From positions 1,054,001 to 1,118,000 of the forward strand of contig OY282456.1 in the NCBI GenBank assembly GCA_958296225.1: a DNA stretch of 64,000 nt, given 5' to 3'. Made by a program: the position numbers and the translations under genes. Of this stretch, positions 6,248 to 63,521 are shown in pieces. Origin of the DNA: an uncultured Dehalococcoidia bacterium (GTDB lineage Bacteria; Chloroflexota; Dehalococcoidia; Lucifugimonadales; UBA3495). The notes beneath the pieces were generated by a model, which was given only the letters and a program-made list of their open reading frames with translations, did not search any database and was not told where the DNA came from. The stretch's first letter is position 1. Every line of letters starts with the position of its first letter.

Positions 6248-7087
6248 TTATTGCGGTTCGGGTCGGCTTTCCTGCAAACGCTGCAGCTCGGCCTGCAGCT
6301 GCAGCACTTGGGCTTCAGCGGCAGAGCGGGCGGTCTGCTCGGCAGTCAAGGCGGCTTCAGCATTCTCGCGCGCCGTTTCGGCAAGCTCCCGAGCCACCCG
6401 CTCGGCCGCCAGGGAGGCTTCCGATTCCGACAGAGTGCGGAGATATTCCCCGGCCGCCGGGTCATAAAAACGCAGTTGGTCACCCGACACGCAGATGTCC
6501 AGTCCCAGCGCCGGGCTGTACGCCCAAATCAGGCCGTCCGCTCCCGGCGCCACCGGCATCGGACGGTATTCCCCGTCCACCAGCCGCTCCCAAGCCAGGG
6601 GCTGCCCGTAGTTTGCCCCGTCGTCGGGGTCAAACAGCCAGTATTCCCCCGCGCCCATCCAGTGGTAGGCGTCCCGCTTGTACCCCAGGTCGGCCCGCCG
6701 CGTGCTGGGCGATGCGATTTCCATGATAAAGTCCGGCGGCTGGCCTACCTCGCATAACGAAAGGCCGTAGCGGTCGCGATATTGCGCTACATCCGGGCTA
6801 AAGATGGCCAGGATGTCCGGGGCCAGCGCCCGGCGAAGGTCGGCCTCGTCCCGATAGTAAATGAAAACGTCCCCGCTGATGAGAGCGTCGGTACGTCGGT
6901 CAAAGTGGGTATGGAGCGTGGTCAGCGCTGCGCTAACCAGCGACTCCCGTTTCACGGCATCGGGCACGGGTTCATCCTTGTACGGGTAACCTTCCGGCGG
7001 GCCGCCGCCCGGCTCCTGCAAGTCCCGGCGGATGGTGAGGTCTAGGCCCGCCACCGGCACCGGGGGCAGCGATATTTTACTGGTCAT
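6248..7087 (-). CDS. Uma2 family endonuclease-like protein with coiled-coil tail
   Basis: 279 residues. Active-site pattern is Asp91 (APD), Glu123 (MEIASPST) and Lys137 (GYKR), then GEYW. The tail from ~residue 215 is an Ala/Glu-rich coiled coil built like those of the Uma2 genes at 33-1637, but sequence identity to them is moderate, so this is an older paralog. The start is ATG 7087 behind GAGGG. Confidence 0.87.
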   Translation of the reverse strand: MTSKISLPPVPVAGLDLTIRRDLQEPGGGPPEGYPYKDEPVPDAVKRESLVSAALTTLHTHFDRRTDALISGDVFIYYRDEADLRRALAPDILAIFSPDVAQYRDRYGLSLCEVGQPPDFIMEIASPSTRRADLGYKRDAYHWMGAGEYWLFDPDDGANYGQPLAWERLVDGEYRPMPVAPGADGLIWAYSPALGLDICVSGDQLRFYDPAAGEYLRTLSESEASLAAERVARELAETARENAEAALTAEQTARSAAEAQVLQLQAELQRLQESRPEPQ

Positions 7088-7142: not shown

Positions 7143-8483
7143 CTACAGCAGCGGCAGGTATCGTGAAATCTCGTAATCCGTCACCGTTGAACGATACTGC
7201 TCCCACTCCTGCTTTTTGTTGCGAATGAGCGTCTTGAAAACGAAATCTCCCAACGTCTGGCGCAGCAATGCGCTATCCTCTGCCAGCGCGATGGCCTCCC
7301 CCATGCTGGTGGGCAGCCGGCTGATTCCCCGCGCCGCGCGCTCTTCGGCCGGCATACCGGCGACATCGGCGGTGATGGGGGACGGCAGCGGGTACTCCTC
7401 CGCGATGCCCTGCAACCCCGCCGCCAGCAGGACGCTGAAGGCCAGGTAGGGGTTGCAGGCGGGGTCCGGCGCGCGGTATTCCACCCGCAGGGAGGTCTCG
7501 TAGCCCGTTTTGTAGGAAGGCACCCGGATGAGGTCCAGCCTGTTGGATACCGTCCATGACACGTGCACCGGCGCTTCGTAGCCGGGCACCAGCCGCTTGT
7601 AGGAATTGACCCACTGGTTGGTAACCAGCGTGATTTCCGACGCATGGCGCAGCAGGCCGGCGATGAACCGCTTGCCGATGACCGAAAGGTGCAAGTCGTC
7701 GTCCGGGTCATAGAAGGCGTTGTTATTGCCGCGAAACAGGGATTGGTGGGTGTGCATCCCGCTGCCGTTGTGGCCGGTGAAGGGCTTGGGCATAAAGGAA
7801 GCGTACACGCCCTGCTGCTGCGCCAGCTCTTTGATGACCAGGCGCGCCGTCATCACGTTGTCGGCCATAGTCAGCGCGTCGGTGTATTGCAGGTCGATTT
7901 CGTGCTGGCTGGGCGCGCCTTCGTGGTGGGAATACTTGACGGGGATGCCCATTTCGGCCAGGTTCAGCACCGTGTCGCGGCGCAGGTCGGAGGCGGGGTT
8001 GCTGGACAGCTGGTCGTAATAGCCGTAGGTATCCAGCGGCTCCGGCTTTTCGGCGTCGCGCAGGTAGAAATACTCCAGCTCCGGCCCCACGTAGTAGATG
8101 TAACCGAGGCTGGACAGCCGTTCCAGATTGCGCTTGAGCACGTGGCGAGGATCGCCGATGAACGGCTCGCCCCGTGGCGTGCGGATGTCGCAAAAGATGC
8201 GGGCCACGGCGTTGCGGCGGGGACGCCAGGGCAACAGCGTGAACGTTGTGGGGTCGGGGAAAGCGCGCATATCGCTCTCTGCATCCGTGGTGAACCCCTC
8301 GATGGCGGCGCCGTCAAAGCCGACGCCCAGCTCCAGGGCGTCCTCCAGGTCGTCCACGGTGATGGCAAAGCCTTTCAGGTTGCCGAGGATGTCCGTGAAC
8401 CACAGGCGCACGAACTTGACGTCAAAGTCGCGGGCGCTGCGGAGCACGTACTCGCGCTCGGCGGCGTGGTGGTCGGTTAGCAC
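7143..8483 (-). CDS. glnA: Glutamine synthetase, type I, non-adenylylated form
   Basis: ATP-dependent ligation of ammonia to glutamate. 446 residues from GTG 8483, preferred because AGGAG sits 7 nt upstream and the length matches GSI-alpha enzymes; the longer ATG 8540 start would overlap hicA by 32 bp. GS landmarks are visible: GVGFDGAAIEGF, the EleYFYL metal site, NGSGMHTHQSL, and KRLVPGYEAP. The adenylylation-site tyrosine motif of GSI-beta is absent (ARGISRLPTS in its place). It follows hicBA closely. A second, different GS lies at 10172-11596. Confidence 0.92.
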   Translation of the reverse strand: MLTDHHAAEREYVLRSARDFDVKFVRLWFTDILGNLKGFAITVDDLEDALELGVGFDGAAIEGFTTDAESDMRAFPDPTTFTLLPWRPRRNAVARIFCDIRTPRGEPFIGDPRHVLKRNLERLSSLGYIYYVGPELEYFYLRDAEKPEPLDTYGYYDQLSSNPASDLRRDTVLNLAEMGIPVKYSHHEGAPSQHEIDLQYTDALTMADNVMTARLVIKELAQQQGVYASFMPKPFTGHNGSGMHTHQSLFRGNNNAFYDPDDDLHLSVIGKRFIAGLLRHASEITLVTNQWVNSYKRLVPGYEAPVHVSWTVSNRLDLIRVPSYKTGYETSLRVEYRAPDPACNPYLAFSVLLAAGLQGIAEEYPLPSPITADVAGMPAEERAARGISRLPTSMGEAIALAEDSALLRQTLGDFVFKTLIRNKKQEWEQYRSTVTDYEISRYLPLL

Positions 8484-8508
8484 GGGTACTGCTCCTGTTC
8501 TATTTCTA

Positions 8509-8769
8509 TCAAACTTGAAATCGGGTAGGTATTTCGCCATCCAGCGCCATTAGAAACTCTGCGTCAGTAACCCCGGACCTGTGAACCATGCGGGCTACTG
8601 TGCCCTGCGGAATGACGCCCCGGTGCCGGTGAATAGACACGGATAACCCTAGCCTGTCGTGGCGCAACTTGTTGTGCGACCCTCGTCCGCTGCCGACGGG
8701 CCGGAAACCCAGCCGGAGGAAAGCGGATAGCGCTTCCGCCGTGCTCAAGTTGCGAAAATACGGCGGCAT
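8509..8769 (-). CDS. hicA: HicA-type mRNA interferase toxin
   Basis: 86 residues with the HicA double-stranded-RNA-binding-like fold: GFRPVGSGRGSHNKL (catalytic His in the GSHNKL segment) and the VSIHRHRGVIPQGT strand, where HicA usually has the VPxHxxxxIxxGTL signature. The ATG overlaps the TGA of hicB (TGATG). Order is antitoxin then toxin, the reverse of the E. coli arrangement. Its 3' end lies 26 bp from the GTG of glnA. Confidence 0.82.
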   Translation of the reverse strand: MPPYFRNLSTAEALSAFLRLGFRPVGSGRGSHNKLRHDRLGLSVSIHRHRGVIPQGTVARMVHRSGVTDAEFLMALDGEIPTRFQV

Positions 8770-9122
8770 CAGACGATTGGCGACTCAATGGGCTCAAGGT
8801 GTGGGTTGTTGCGGATTTCCTCCTCCGTCATAAACCGGGGTTCAACCCAGTGCAATTCGGTAGTTCCGCCTTCTTCGCGGCATTCGGCGAGGGTTATTTC
8901 TTTTTCAGCTCGCGTTTGTTCCGCGTCAAGAATTACAACCTCCCATCCCGGTCCCTCTTCCAGGTACAGGGCCATGGCGTCGGCGATCATTTGCAGCGCC
9001 TCCGCGCGGGTTTGGCCGTCGGAAACGCAGCCCCGCATGGCCGGGCAGACCGCCGTCCACCAGAGGTTATCCGGGTACTCGGCATCCGGGTACTTGACCA
9101 ATATCACTTCGAACTTTGCCAT
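8769..9122 (-). CDS. hicB: HicB-type antitoxin
   Basis: 117 residues. The N-terminal half is the HicB partial RNase H-like fold (VCPAMRGCVSDGQTRAEALQMIADAMALYLE). The C-terminal half is acidic and has no obvious helix-turn-helix or ribbon-helix-helix, so autoregulation is uncertain. The start is ATG 9122 behind GGAGGA. It pairs with hicA by 1-bp overlap. Confidence 0.82.
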   Translation of the reverse strand: MAKFEVILVKYPDAEYPDNLWWTAVCPAMRGCVSDGQTRAEALQMIADAMALYLEEGPGWEVVILDAEQTRAEKEITLAECREEGGTTELHWVEPRFMTEEEIRNNPHLEPIESPIV

Positions 9123-9128
9123 CAGCAG

Positions 9129-9536
9129 TCACTCCTCCTGAGCTTCACGCTTGATGTCGTCCCAATGCACCATCCGGTTAACGAAAACGGCGCCGTTGGG
9201 GAACAGATACCCGGTCAAATAGCTGTCCCACAGCAGGCCCATTCCGGCATAGGGCGGCCGATCCGTCTCTACCACGTTCACGGGGATGGGCCCGTCGTGC
9301 CACTCTACATAGGCGATGTAGGATAGCGTTGCGCCGGAGGTGCCGTTGAGCCGCAAATCGGTGTCATCCGACAGCATAAGACCCAGCTCAGCGATTTCCT
9401 GCGGCGACAGCCCCAATCCGTCATCGCTGGCGGTATCAATCTCAACCTGAATCTCCCGGAAGGGCGCCTCACCATTGGAAACGCTGACCGGGATAGTCAA
9501 ACGCCGGTTGACGTTGCACCGGCCCATAATCGGCAT
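9129..9536 (-). CDS. Clan AA retropepsin-like aspartic protease (cassette 1)
   Basis: 135 residues. The fold resembles small single-domain retropepsin-like proteins: N-terminal TIPVSV strand, then VEIDTASDDGLGLSP at the position of the usual hydrophobic-D-T/S-G motif, then GLLWDSYLTGYLF as the distal segment. The active-site Gly is replaced by Ala (DTA). It follows the double-repeat gene at 9548-10084 by 11 bp with its own AGGAGC site. The same gene pair recurs at 62624-63521, where the motif is DTG. Physiological substrate unknown. Confidence 0.68.
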   Translation of the reverse strand: MPIMGRCNVNRRLTIPVSVSNGEAPFREIQVEIDTASDDGLGLSPQEIAELGLMLSDDTDLRLNGTSGATLSYIAYVEWHDGPIPVNVVETDRPPYAGMGLLWDSYLTGYLFPNGAVFVNRMVHWDDIKREAQEE

Positions 9537-9547
9537 AATCGCTGCTC

Positions 9548-10084
9548 CTATGCCCGTCCATCGTGGGTGGTCTGATAGCCGATGCGAAATCCAAAGAAGG
9601 GTGGCTTCTCGCCTTTTGGTATCTGAAACCGTTCCCGCATCCGCAGGCCGGCTACGGCCAGGTTGGCGTCAATCTCGTAGTCGTGGGTTTCCATGTGCAG
9701 CACCAGGTACTTGCCGTTATGCTCCGGTTCTACCAGATGCTTGATTTTGGCGTCGTAGATGGCGTGGGCCCGGCCCGGCAGGCTTTGCGGCCATTCCTCA
9801 GGCGGAATCGGCGTCCCTACTATCCGCGGCCGCCGGTCGAAAGTCGTCGGGTAGCCGATGCGGAAGGCAAAGAAGGGCGGCTTTTCTCCCCTCGGTATCT
9901 GGAACCGCTCCCGCATCCGCACGCTGGCCATGGCCAGGTTATCGTCAATGTCGTAATCGCCGGTTTCCATATTGAGCACCAGGTACTTGCCGTTATGCTC
10001 CGGCTCCACCAGCTGCTTGATGTCGGCGTCATAAATGGCGTGTGCCCGGCTGCGCACGCTTGCGCCCTGGTCGGTAGCCATCAT
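9548..10084 (-). CDS. Double-repeat protein, unknown function (cassette 1)
   Basis: 178 residues made of two ~80-residue copies of one domain. Each copy runs RAHAIYDAxIKxLVEPEHNGKYLVLxME, xDYxID, then RMRERFQIPxGEKPPFF and FRIGYxTT. The repeats start near residues 13 and 105. No signal peptide or membrane segment. I do not recognise a named domain. The same domain duplicated in the same way occurs at 62994-63521, again immediately upstream of a clan AA protease, so the two genes probably act together. ATG at 10081 is an alternative start. Confidence 0.75.
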   Translation of the reverse strand: MMATDQGASVRSRAHAIYDADIKQLVEPEHNGKYLVLNMETGDYDIDDNLAMASVRMRERFQIPRGEKPPFFAFRIGYPTTFDRRPRIVGTPIPPEEWPQSLPGRAHAIYDAKIKHLVEPEHNGKYLVLHMETHDYEIDANLAVAGLRMRERFQIPKGEKPPFFGFRIGYQTTHDGRA

Positions 10085-10171: not shown

Positions 10172-11596
<1,425 letters not shown>

Positions 11597-11683: not shown

Positions 11684-12904
11684 CTACTGGTTCAAGCCTT
11701 CGCCGTGCTGGGTCAAGTCAATCCCAATCTCTTCCTCGTCGTCGGTGATGCGCAGCCCGATGGTGTACTTGAGGGCCAGCAGGATGATACAGGATACGAC
11801 GAAGGACCAGGCGAAAGCGGCGCCGATGCCGATAATCTGGTACAGGACTTGTTCGAGGCGGGAAACGTCGGCGTCCAGCGCGCCGAAGCCGACGCCCACG
11901 AAGATGCCCGTGGCCAGCGCGCCCCACATTCCCCCGATGCCGTGGATGCCGAAGACGTCCAGCGAGTCGTCGATGCGGAGCTTGTGGATAATTTCCACGG
12001 CGATGAAACAGGCGCCGCCGGCGCCGGCGCCGATGATGATGGCCGGCATCACGCCCACGAACCCGGCCGCCGGGGTGATGGCGACCAGTCCCGCCACGGC
12101 GCCGGCGGCGGCCCCGGAGGCCGATGGCCGTCGCGTAATTATCCAGGACACAATTGACCACGAGGACATGGCCGTGGCCGCCGCAACGTTGGTAACGACG
12201 AAAGCGTTGGCCGCGCCGTCGGTGGAGAGGTTGAAACTGCTGCCGGCGTTGAATCCGAACCAGCCGAACCAGAGCAACCCGGCTCCCAGCAGCACCAGCG
12301 GCACGTTATCGGGGGTCAGGGTTGCGGTGCCGAAGCCGCGGCGGCGGCCCACGATGAATGCGGCCGCCAGCGCCGCCGTGCCCGAGGCGATATGCACTAC
12401 GGTTCCGCCGGCGAAGTCCAGCGCGAAACCGGCCTCGCTCATCCCCAGCACGCTGCCCAGGTTGCCCAGCCAGCCGCCGCCCCAAACCCAGTGGCAGAGG
12501 GGGGCGTAAACAATCGTTACCCACAGCGCGGAGAATATTATGTAAGCAGAGAATTTGAACCGCTCGGCGAACCCGCCAGCGATGAGGGCGACGGTGATGA
12601 TGGCGAACATTCCCTGGAAGGCCATGAAAGCCTGCTCGTCCGGGCCGACGCCCACCATGCCGAACTTGGTCAGGTCGCCCACGAACCCCAGGCCGCCCAC
12701 GCTGGCGCTGAACGCCAGGCTGTAACCCCACAACACCCACAGCACGCTCACCACGCCAATGGCCGTGATGGAGTGCATCATCGTTCCGATGACGTTTTTG
12801 TGGCGAACCAGCCCGCCATAGAACAGCGCCAGTCCGGGCACCATAACGAACACCAGCGCCGCCGAGATTAGGAAGGAGAATACCTCCAGTTCGCTGAACT
12901 CCAT
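11684..12904 (-). CDS. amt: Ammonium transporter, Amt family (1)
   Basis: 406 residues, about eleven membrane segments. Amt hallmarks: PGLALFYGG near the N-terminus, CHWVWGGGWL, DFAGGTVVHIASG (pore His region) and FGIHGIGGMWG (second pore His). No cleavable signal peptide. The cytoplasmic tail ends DEEEEIGIDLTQHGEGLNQ, which in Amt proteins contacts PII. No glnK is adjacent. The start is ATG 12904 with GAGGGG upstream. Confidence 0.94.
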   Translation of the reverse strand: MEFSELEVFSFLISAALVFVMVPGLALFYGGLVRHKNVIGTMMHSITAIGVVSVLWVLWGYSLAFSASVGGLGFVGDLTKFGMVGVGPDEQAFMAFQGMFAIITVALIAGGFAERFKFSAYIIFSALWVTIVYAPLCHWVWGGGWLGNLGSVLGMSEAGFALDFAGGTVVHIASGTAALAAAFIVGRRRGFGTATLTPDNVPLVLLGAGLLWFGWFGFNAGSSFNLSTDGAANAFVVTNVAAATAMSSWSIVSWIITRRPSASGAAAGAVAGLVAITPAAGFVGVMPAIIIGAGAGGACFIAVEIIHKLRIDDSLDVFGIHGIGGMWGALATGIFVGVGFGALDADVSRLEQVLYQIIGIGAAFAWSFVVSCIILLALKYTIGLRITDDEEEIGIDLTQHGEGLNQ

Positions 12905-12993
12905 ATATCATCCCCTCACTGATGATGGCTGCCAAGTGCGCCGGCTCCCGCGGCGCCGTCGCGGCAATGTGGCCGTGCCGCCGGCGGTGAATG

Positions 12994-12999
12994 ATTATA
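12994..12999 (-). promoter_or_regulatory. Candidate -10 box for the amt-glnA operon
   Basis: TATAAT on the minus strand at 12999-12994, about 90 bp before the amt ATG. No consensus -35 hexamer lies 15-19 bp upstream. This fits an activator-dependent promoter served by the phased box at 13044-13081. Confidence 0.5.
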
Positions 13000-13043
13000 C
13001 AGTTGCCAGCAGAAAAAGCACTAATAAAGTGTAGATTTCCGGT

Positions 13044-13081
13044 GTTACGTACAAATGACGGAAATGTTACAAAGTTGTTAC
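13044..13081 (-). promoter_or_regulatory. GlnR-box-like operator upstream of amt-glnA
   Basis: On the minus strand four 5-mers are spaced by exactly 6 nt: GTAAC (13081-13077), GTAAC (13070-13066), GTCAT (13059-13055), GTAAC (13048-13044). Actinobacterial GlnR boxes are gTnAC-n6-GaAAc repeats with this same 11-bp phase. The array is centred about 65 bp upstream of the likely transcription start, an activator position. Seen in sequence; the regulator assignment is inferred. Confidence 0.6.
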
Positions 13082-13152
13082 GCGCCCTGGCCGCCACGCT
13101 TTCCCGCCGTCCGTCATTCCCGCGCCGGCGCCGGCGCCACCGCCGGCCGCCA

Positions 13153-13193
13153 ACCAAAACGAGGGCCGGGGGCGGCCACAGCCCCCGACCCTC
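13153..13193 (-). terminator. Rho-independent terminator of amt (2)
   Basis: On the minus strand a 13-bp stem (13193-13181 with 13173-13161, one G-T wobble, 7-nt loop) is followed by CGTTTTGG. It lies 35 bp past the stop of the amt gene at 13228-14574 and separates it from the amt-glnA operator, so the two amt genes are independent transcription units. Confidence 0.82.
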
Positions 13194-13227
13194 GCAGTAA
13201 GGAGGAGGAAATTTCCGGTTTAGAGGT

Positions 13228-14574
13228 CTAGCTGACGGCGGTGGCCTCCGGGTAGGTCTGGATGCCGTGCTCGGAGATGTCCAGCCCTTCCATTTCCTCG
13301 GCCTCGCTGACGCGCACGCCCATGGTGAACTTCAGCAGGTAGAACATTGCCAGGCCCGTAACCAGCGCCCAGATGACAACGGCGAGGATGCTGACAATCT
13401 GCGGGCCAATGAGCGTTGCGCTGCCGCTGACCAAACCGCCCTCTTTGGCGAAGATGGCAACGGCCAGCAGTCCCCACAGGCCGGTGAACCCGTGTACGCT
13501 GATGGCGCCCACCGGGTCGTCAACTTTCAGGACGCGCTCGACGAACATCACGGAGAAGTACATCACGGGGGCGGCGATGGCGCCGATGACTACGGCGGCC
13601 CACGGGTCAACGAAGCCGACGGGGGCGGTGATGCCCACCAGGCCGGCCAGCGCGCCGTTGCAGGCCATCAGGATGTCGGCTTTGCCTTTGACAATCAACG
13701 TGATGTACAGGGCGACTACCGCTCCGGTGGCGCCGGCCAGCAGCGTGTTGACCGCGTTCAGGCCGATGTCGTCGCCCCAGCCGACGTTGAAGCCGAACCA
13801 GCCGAAGAAGAGGATGAACGTGCCGGCGACCACGAAAGGCGTGCTGTGAGCCGGCATCTCCTGGGCGCGTCCGTTGATGAACTTGCCGATGCGCGGCCCA
13901 ACCACCCAGGCGCCGGCCAGGGCAATGAAGCCGCCGACGGCGTGCACCACACCGGAACCGGCGTAGTCCAGAGCGCCCATATTAGCCAGCCAGCCGCTGC
14001 CCCAGACCCAGTGACCGTAGATGGGGTAAATCAGGGCGGAGACGATGAAGCTGTAGGCCAGATAAGCCTGCAGCTTGGTCCGCTCGGCCATGGCGCCGGC
14101 TACGATGGTGGCGGCGGTGGCGGCGAAGACCATCTGGAAAATCCAGCCCACGTAGTCGCCGCTGGTCAGGAACCATCCGGTGATTCCGATGATGCCGCCG
14201 GCGGTATCGCCCAGCATAAAGGCGAAGCCGAAGGCCCAGAAGCCCAGGGACGCAATGGCAAAGTCCATAAAGGACTTGGTGAGGTAGTTGGTCGTGTTCT
14301 TGGAGCGGATAAGACCGGCGCCCAGGAAGGCGAAACCGGCCTGCATAAAGAAGACCAGCGCCGCGGCAACAACCGTAACGATGTCGTCGGAGTAGCCCTT
14401 GAGCCACTCGGTAGTGGGACCATCGTCCTGAGCGAAGGCGATGTTGAAGGACGCCAGCAACCCGATTGCCAGCAGTCCCACCGCCAACGCCAGCAGCGTG
14501 CGCCGCAGGGAGAAGGGGTACTCTTTCACCGCGGCTGCGCCGTGGCTGAATACGGATGATGTGGCCGAAAGCAT
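13228..14574 (-). CDS. amt: Ammonium transporter, Amt family with N-terminal signal-like segment (2)
   Basis: 448 residues. A hydrophobic leader (LLALAVGLLAIGLLASFNIAFA, given here as residues ~28-48) precedes the first Amt helix, as in many bacterial AmtB precursors. Pore regions: YGHWVWGSGWL, DYAGSGVVHAVGG and ISVHGFTGLWG. The C-terminal tail contains EEMEGLDISEHG, a PII-contact-type tail. It differs strongly from the first amt, so the pair is not a recent duplication. Start ATG 14574 after AGGAGG. Confidence 0.93.
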   Translation of the reverse strand: MLSATSSVFSHGAAAVKEYPFSLRRTLLALAVGLLAIGLLASFNIAFAQDDGPTTEWLKGYSDDIVTVVAAALVFFMQAGFAFLGAGLIRSKNTTNYLTKSFMDFAIASLGFWAFGFAFMLGDTAGGIIGITGWFLTSGDYVGWIFQMVFAATAATIVAGAMAERTKLQAYLAYSFIVSALIYPIYGHWVWGSGWLANMGALDYAGSGVVHAVGGFIALAGAWVVGPRIGKFINGRAQEMPAHSTPFVVAGTFILFFGWFGFNVGWGDDIGLNAVNTLLAGATGAVVALYITLIVKGKADILMACNGALAGLVGITAPVGFVDPWAAVVIGAIAAPVMYFSVMFVERVLKVDDPVGAISVHGFTGLWGLLAVAIFAKEGGLVSGSATLIGPQIVSILAVVIWALVTGLAMFYLLKFTMGVRVSEAEEMEGLDISEHGIQTYPEATAVS

Positions 14575-62590: not shown

Positions 62591-62627
62591 CGCCCCCGGC
62601 GGGATGTGCCAACGGGGGCGTTTCTAT
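62591..62627 (+). terminator. Rho-independent terminator of korAB
   Basis: Perfect 8-bp stem CGCCCCCG/CGGGGGCG (62591-62598 with 62613-62620), 14-nt loop, then TTTCTATT, ~30 bp after korB. It overlaps the end of the convergent protease gene. Confidence 0.75.
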
Positions 62628-63001
62628 TCGGGGAGCGGGGTGATGGCGACCTGGCCGCCATATTCCCAGTCAATGGTCAGCGAGGTTTCCCAGAGCAGGT
62701 TGGCGCCAATGAGCGGAAGGTCGCGCGCGGCGATGATTTCGACCCCTCTGGAATTGCCCAGCCACGGCACGGTTGCGGCGTACACATCGGCGTGAACCTC
62801 TTGCCCGTCAGCTAAAATTGTCCTGCTGGTGGTAACGAGCGGCAGATTGAGCCGGGTGATGTCGGCAATGGGGAGTTGCAGGTCGCCATTGAACCCGGTG
62901 TCGATGACAGGATTGAACCTGGCAAATTGCTGGCCGGCGGGGTTCAGTACGATGATGGGCACCGTGGCCTGCCGGGCCCGGTTGATGCTGCCGTTAATCA
63001 T
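62624..63001 (-). CDS. Clan AA retropepsin-like aspartic protease (cassette 2)
   Basis: 125 residues from ATG 63001, overlapping the upstream gene by 8 bp (ATG 63010 is an alternative). Active-site motif VIDTGFNGDLQLP, then VTTSRTILADGQEVHADVY and LIGANLLWETSLTIDW. This is the DTG form of the retropepsin-like fold, unlike the DTA seen in cassette 1. It is directly coupled to the double-repeat gene, as at 9129-10084. Confidence 0.78.
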   Translation of the reverse strand: MINGSINRARQATVPIIVLNPAGQQFARFNPVIDTGFNGDLQLPIADITRLNLPLVTTSRTILADGQEVHADVYAATVPWLGNSRGVEIIAARDLPLIGANLLWETSLTIDWEYGGQVAITPLPE

Positions 63002-63521
63002 TGCCGTCATTCGGCAATACCGTTTCGTAGCCGATGCGGAACAGGATGAGGGGTTTCCCAGGCATTCCCTGGTCAACGTCGAAGCCGGCTTTCATGATGT
63101 CCTCATGGATCCCGTACTCGCCGCTGTCCGGGTCCAGGGCAAGGTATTTGCCACTGTGGAGCGGCTCAACCAGGTGACGGATTTCCGCGTCATAGAGAGC
63201 CCGACCGCGCTCCATGTAATCGCCATATTTGGCCTGGGCTTCGTCAATTTCCTGCTGGGTATAGTCCACCCGCCCACGTACCCCGGTGATGGCGGCTCTA
63301 TGGCCGATGCGGATTACGTGTAGAAACTTGCCGGGCAACTTTGCCCGCAAGTCGAGCGCGGCATCCAAAATCCTGTTTCCGATTTCGTAGCGGCCGCTTT
63401 CCGGTTCGATGGCAATAAACTTGCCGGTGTGCTGCGGCTCGACCAGATGCCGGATGCTGGCCTCATAAACGGCCTGGGCGCGCGGCCCGACATTCTCGCG
63501 GGTTGTGGGCGTATCAAACAT
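62994..63521 (-). CDS. Double-repeat protein, unknown function (cassette 2)
   Basis: 175 residues from ATG 63521, preceded by GGAGG; the longer upstream frame is not favoured. Two domain copies: RAQAVYEASIRHLVEPQHTGKF then RALYDAEIRHLVEPLHSGKYLA, each followed by D/E-x-G-x-Y-x-I, a helix, and a FL/LI-x-x-IG-x-x-x-x segment. It matches the protein at 9548-10084 in length, domain order and neighbour. Its stop lies just inside the protease gene's start. Function unknown. Confidence 0.78.
   Translation of the reverse strand: MFDTPTTRENVGPRAQAVYEASIRHLVEPQHTGKFIAIEPESGRYEIGNRILDAALDLRAKLPGKFLHVIRIGHRAAITGVRGRVDYTQQEIDEAQAKYGDYMERGRALYDAEIRHLVEPLHSGKYLALDPDSGEYGIHEDIMKAGFDVDQGMPGKPLILFRIGYETVLPNDGND

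Follow-up and report, generated by a model that had tools for sequence, protein, structure and literature searches.

Retropepsin-like clan AA protease genes paired with a small upstream repeat-domain gene: a candidate toxin-antitoxin-like module in bacteria

Two-gene units in which a protease is encoded beside a dedicated partner are known from the ImmA/IrrE (COG2856) Zn-protease and its Xre-family partner, a pair linked to toxin-antitoxin genes (PMC2701414); when Makarova et al. catalogued type II systems in 2009, they named this Zn-protease with its Xre partner, not an aspartic protease (PMC2701414). The pair described here, a repeat-domain gene (REP) followed by a gene for a retropepsin-like clan AA protease (PRO), shares this protease-partner layout, but the ImmA/IrrE enzyme is a HEXXH metalloprotease with an HTH partner, whereas PRO is an aspartic protease (D[TS]G) and REP has no HTH match. 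REP-PRO also resembles the type II systems HicBA, ParDE and VapBC, being made of two small coupled genes that occur in several copies and on plasmids, with solitary antitoxins left after toxin decay. To our knowledge, no type II toxin-antitoxin system has a clan AA protease as its toxin.

Most known retropepsins are retroviral, with a few bacterial enzymes besides, and the clan AA proteases of bacteria largely lack an assigned function; a dedicated, coupled partner offers a direct way into the roles of many of them. The closest solved retropepsin-like fold to PRO is that of APRc from Rickettsia conorii (PDB 5c9b), for which we know of no REP-type partner. By sequence, PRO resembles TIGR03698/COG5550 (AF_0612 type), sharing a catalytic DTG and a length of about 120 aa, with a best match to the model at E ~4e-15; the paired proteases differ from it in forming a separate high-scoring, REP-tied group, apart from the solitary TIGR03698-like proteases of the same genomes. 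A survey of clan AA describes the prokaryotic COG3577 and COG5550 groups as little known (PMC2642776). In the open-licence literature searched, we found no description of the REP-PRO pair.

The window copies and their paralogues

The window, the whole 64,000-nucleotide stretch of Dehalococcoidia DNA analysed here, holds two REP-PRO pairs (Table 1), both with the repeat ORF followed by the protease ORF on the minus strand, as the first-pass annotation of this DNA had reported. The 11-bp spacing given there separates the REP end from the PRO start in copy 1, but does not apply to copy 2: its likely PRO start codon (ATG) is at 63001 or 63010, giving an overlap of 8 or 17 nt with the end of REP. 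The DTA noted in PRO copy 1 is real. Searched alone against family profiles, PRO copy 1 matched no family; it gave a full-length match of 98.7 bits to the profile of paired proteases, a profile that includes PRO copy 1 itself. PRO copy 2 matched TIGR03698 at E = 6e-15 and 55.4 bits (55.4-56 across searches; cut-off 57.35).

Table 1 REP-PRO pairs of the window and the toxin-antitoxin-type genes next to copy 1 (positions in the window).
Feature	Coordinates	Strand	Description
HicA toxin gene	8509..8769	-	PF07927 E = 3.5e-7, above cut-off; partner of the HicB-like gene
HicB-like antitoxin gene	8769..9122	-	PF15919 E = 0.0011, below curated cut-off
PRO copy 1	9129..9536	-	135-aa ORF, retropepsin-like clan AA protease, DTA replacing DTG
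REP copy 1	9548..10084	-	178-aa ORF, two REP domains of ~65 residues, unnamed family
PRO copy 2	62624..63010	-	Retropepsin-like protease, DTGF; ORF end at 62624
REP copy 2	62994..63521	-	Double-domain REP gene

Through iterative profile search, 20 REP domains in 18 genes were found in the window's genome (G000; 3.97 Mb, one contig). A near-full-length PRO lies directly downstream, on the same strand, of 15 of these 18 genes; a truncated PRO stands behind two more (at 1603184 and 2470284), and the remaining gene sits in a REP-REP-PRO run. Because of these counts, the pairing in G000 is not attributable to chance. Clan AA proteases that stand alone are encoded in the genome as well, and these look different (MGTF...VDTGA). 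One domain is the norm (16/18 REP genes), so the double-domain copies of the window are variants, and the double repeat, by which the first-pass annotation described the protein, was rejected as a defining family trait. At G000:C1:56862-59050, three REP-PRO pairs stand in tandem and are apparently recent duplicates.

Distribution, gene overlap and protein families

Within the class, REP was found in 13 of 148 genomes, with PRO directly downstream of nearly every REP. When 84,980 species genomes were scanned with a three-sequence REP alignment, a query that favours one REP subtype and intact REP in the resulting set, 63 REP loci were returned, most with PRO directly downstream; by their MAG labels these belong to Chloroflexi, Planctomycetota, Latescibacterota, Poribacteria, Gemmatimonadota, Omnitrophota, KSB1, Acidobacteria, Proteobacteria and others. 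REP also occurs on plasmids of Nostoc, Tolypothrix, Trichormus and Oscillatoria where, if annotated, it is called "hypothetical protein" and PRO "clan AA aspartic protease". No relative was found in a scan of IMG/VR and in phage records, and there is therefore no evidence for phage carriage.

The association is reciprocal. Among 31 genomes searched with both profiles, nearly all PRO matches of at least 57 bits lie directly downstream of REP, the exceptions being two contig ends in G162 and a broken gene (G166:C159), and most matches below ~42 bits come from clan AA proteases of the generic kind that stand alone; an equivalent association was seen in G000 and 12 class genomes. Three contig-end loci (L176, L187 and L188) have a fragment of paired-type PRO but show no REP. 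REP always comes first, and in 47 of 53 pairs outside G000 the PRO start overlaps the REP stop by exactly 4 nt, as it also does in four annotated cyanobacterial plasmid pairs; spacing in G000 is more varied (-20 to +15). The pair is thereby arranged like a type II toxin-antitoxin system, with adjacent coupled genes and the putative antitoxin (REP) upstream. The first-pass annotation had proposed a conserved functional unit, to be abandoned if homologues were rarely adjacent or if the repeat domain belonged to a known family with an unrelated role. The former is the opposite of what we see, namely near-constant adjacency across many phyla, mostly with a 4-nt overlap; as for the latter, no named family was matched, the sole lead being a weak, sub-threshold likeness to DUF5678.

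This distribution also bears on a deflationary account, in which REP-PRO would be a housekeeping or metabolic pair without a toxin-antitoxin-like role, amplified by chance. Copies near ordinary genes (glnA, ferredoxin oxidoreductase) would suit such a pair, but the patchy distribution within the class, the plasmid carriage, the lack of a fixed chromosomal context and the frequent decay described below speak against it, and we regard it as very improbable.

REP matched no family in Pfam, NCBIfam or PADLOC, in agreement with the first reading of it as a protein without a nameable domain, and Pfam recognised neither an HTH nor an RHH nor any further known domain in it. Its predicted structure is alpha-beta-beta-alpha-beta-beta, of fair confidence (pLDDT 85, pTM 0.75), and comparison of this model with the PDB by Foldseek and VIA-align gave nothing prominent (best E 1.4, best Z 3.6), a result that does not by itself make the fold a new one. 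The best sequence matches of REP in the PDB were to designed trefoil proteins over 26 residues, which we took as chance. For PRO, AlphaFold modelling of a read-through REP-PRO chain (L128) predicted both domains to be folded (pLDDT 91), with an orientation that is not fixed (pTM 0.62); the model therefore speaks neither for nor against binding between REP and PRO. The PRO part of this model matches the retropepsin 5c9b (Foldseek E 2.3e-4, prob 1.00), followed by retroviral proteases; the retropepsin fold is thus present in the predicted chain. Sequence homology of PRO to TIGR03698 is clear, with 14 of 15 aligned PRO of the genome matching at E <= 0.1, whereas strict membership does not apply (0/27 matches in G000 above 57.35 bits).

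A second family, DUF5678 (PF18929), occupies a parallel position: in genomes of the same class, at least 14 of 19 DUF5678 loci have another clan AA protease immediately downstream. DUF5678 shares with REP its small size and its place ahead of a clan AA protease gene, and its G-[KQ]-[YFW]-V-A core resembles that of REP. The two profiles align over this core with a profile-profile score of 17.0, which none of 200 column-permuted controls reaches; the hhalign probability is low (3.5%), and in Pfam no REP member matched DUF5678 even at E <= 5, let alone at the gathering cut-off. The DUF5678-paired proteases differ, scoring weakly against the REP-paired profile and having other active-site surroundings (DTGAD/DTGAH, others). 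Judged from the sequences, common ancestry of REP and DUF5678 is plausible. In G000 itself, DUF5678 stands directly 5' of a second retropepsin-like type at C1:301930, 2531991 and 825286 (L136-L138), the third of these proteases being truncated.

Co-divergence and one-sided decay

In a set of 15 paralogous pairs from one genome, distances between REP copies correlate with those between the PRO copies (Mantel r = 0.77, P = 2e-4; r = 0.64 with tandem copies left out), and the pairs therefore diverge as units. In close pairs outside G000, dN/dS is ~0.07-0.19 for both genes; among the tandem copies of G000 it is 0.25-0.45. The catalytic Asp is invariant in all 62 aligned paired PRO. The D[TS]G motif of clan AA is carried by nearly all paired PRO, window copy 2 included, while the DTA of window copy 1 departs from the strict motif. 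The first-pass annotation took this DTA as a hint that one protease may be altered, a suggestion weakened by the motif counts among 68 paired PRO (DTG 64, DTA 3, DSG 1); since DTA recurs in other pairs, L067 and L172 among them, we rejected the view of PRO copy 1 as uniquely degenerate.

Decay of the pair is strongly one-sided. On inspection of doubtful loci at the DNA level, intact REP with a broken or missing PRO was found at ~20 loci (2 in G000, 6 in class genomes and ~12 in other genomes), against a single reverse case (G176:C552), which has an in-frame TGA in REP and an intact PRO; the counts were compiled by hand, and MAG assembly errors may account for some of the breaks. Loci through which genomes were chosen are excluded from these counts because the scan alignment is biased towards intact REP. 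A binomial calculation weighted for gene length gives P ~2e-4 for one or no reverse case among 21. Both genes are broken at four loci. The only full-length PRO without REP (G064:C112) has its catalytic DTG changed to VTG, and at L066, L070 and L091 a deletion took the catalytic part of PRO, leaving the PRO tail next to REP. REP is likewise intact and PRO truncated on plasmid pOSCIL6304.01.

In type II systems the toxin is not kept alone, whereas solitary antitoxins are tolerated; the decay counts agree with this, and the pattern favours an antitoxin or inhibitor role for REP. One-sided decay would also arise if REP were an effector and PRO its regulator, a form of regulated proteolysis in which PRO cleaves and switches REP, as ImmA cuts the repressor ImmR. 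REP could then go on working once PRO is lost, solitary REP genes are indeed common, and coupled, co-diverging partners would suit a protease and its own substrate. Set against these points are the lack of a regulator-type domain in REP, the toxin-antitoxin and defence neighbours described below, which regulated proteolysis does not predict, and the fate of REP in two genomes sharing a PRO loss (L118 and L129): here REP dN/dS is 0.50 versus ~0.1 elsewhere, which in this single case suggests that REP is of little use alone. We consider regulated proteolysis, the main rival reading, unlikely, though worth keeping in view.

Genomic setting and proposed role

Toxin-antitoxin and defence genes adjoin several copies. 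The HicB-like and HicA genes of the window (Table 1) are neighbours of copy 1 and lie outside the REP-PRO module; as the HicB-like gene begins 6 bp past PRO copy 1, REP-PRO-hicB-hicA may share one transcript. ParDE lies beside the pair on Trichormus plasmid A, RelE and Uma2 beside it on a Nostoc commune plasmid, and on plasmid pNSMS101 of Nostoc sp. MS1 (L195) REP-PRO sits within a BREX-1 locus, with pglX on one side and pglZ on the other. Among small neighbours, ~7-8 toxin-antitoxin-type proteins were counted over 306 kb and none over the 120 kb that served as a small control; the enrichment near the pairs is slight.

Taken together, the translational coupling, reciprocal association, one-sided decay, invariant Asp, distance correlation, setting and predicted retropepsin fold lead us to propose that REP-PRO may be a toxin-antitoxin-like module in which REP restrains the retropepsin. 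Gene order, overlap, near-obligate association, co-divergence, the conserved catalytic Asp and the direction of decay are direct observations; the setting comprises the multiplicity of copies within a genome, their patchy occurrence, carriage on cyanobacterial plasmids, ParDE, RelE, HicBA and PIN neighbours, and the BREX-1 locus. Counted against the proposal are the unfixed orientation of the two domains in the read-through model, the lack in REP of a recognisable DNA-binding domain, which type II antitoxins commonly though not always have and use for autoregulation, and the modest size of the toxin-antitoxin enrichment. It is the simplest account, and we give it about an even chance of being right.

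The module would work as follows. A translationally coupled gene pair, probably spread horizontally, would encode a small aspartic protease of retropepsin type, presumably a dimer, which could harm the cell if its activity went unchecked. REP, the product of the upstream gene, would be made first and would bind or otherwise restrain its own PRO; loss or breakdown of REP, for example under stress or phage attack, might then free PRO to act on its target.

The same near-obligate association and coupling would be expected if REP were instead an adaptor, chaperone or activator, required for the folding, dimerisation or substrate finding of a defence or stress protease; the pair would then be directed at an outside target rather than at the cell itself. 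The pair inside the BREX-1 locus would fit such a protease, and the DUF5678-retropepsin pairs share the design. REP often outlasts PRO, however, where a chaperone or adaptor would be expected to vanish together with its client, and we hold this alternative to be improbable.

If REP does restrain a harmful PRO, the pair would define a toxin-antitoxin class with an aspartic protease as the toxin, its two proteins currently annotated in many phyla as "hypothetical protein" and "clan AA aspartic protease". More broadly, we tentatively suggest, at somewhat less than an even chance, an undescribed toxin-antitoxin or abortive-infection class in which a retropepsin effector is held by a dedicated small partner drawn from at least two families (REP, DUF5678) that follow a common plan, across many phyla and plasmids.

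Several further neighbours were recognised by eye. At L081:3518-4136 a truncated PRO is followed by small RHH-like and PIN-like ORFs, a VapBC-type pair. In the window, copy 1 lies between two glutamine synthetase-like genes (7143-8540 and 10172-11596, minus strand), two ammonium transporter-like genes occupy 11684-14574 further upstream, and a Uma2-type endonuclease-like gene lies at 6248-7087 (minus strand); a gene of similar kind adjoins the pair on a Nostoc plasmid (L199).
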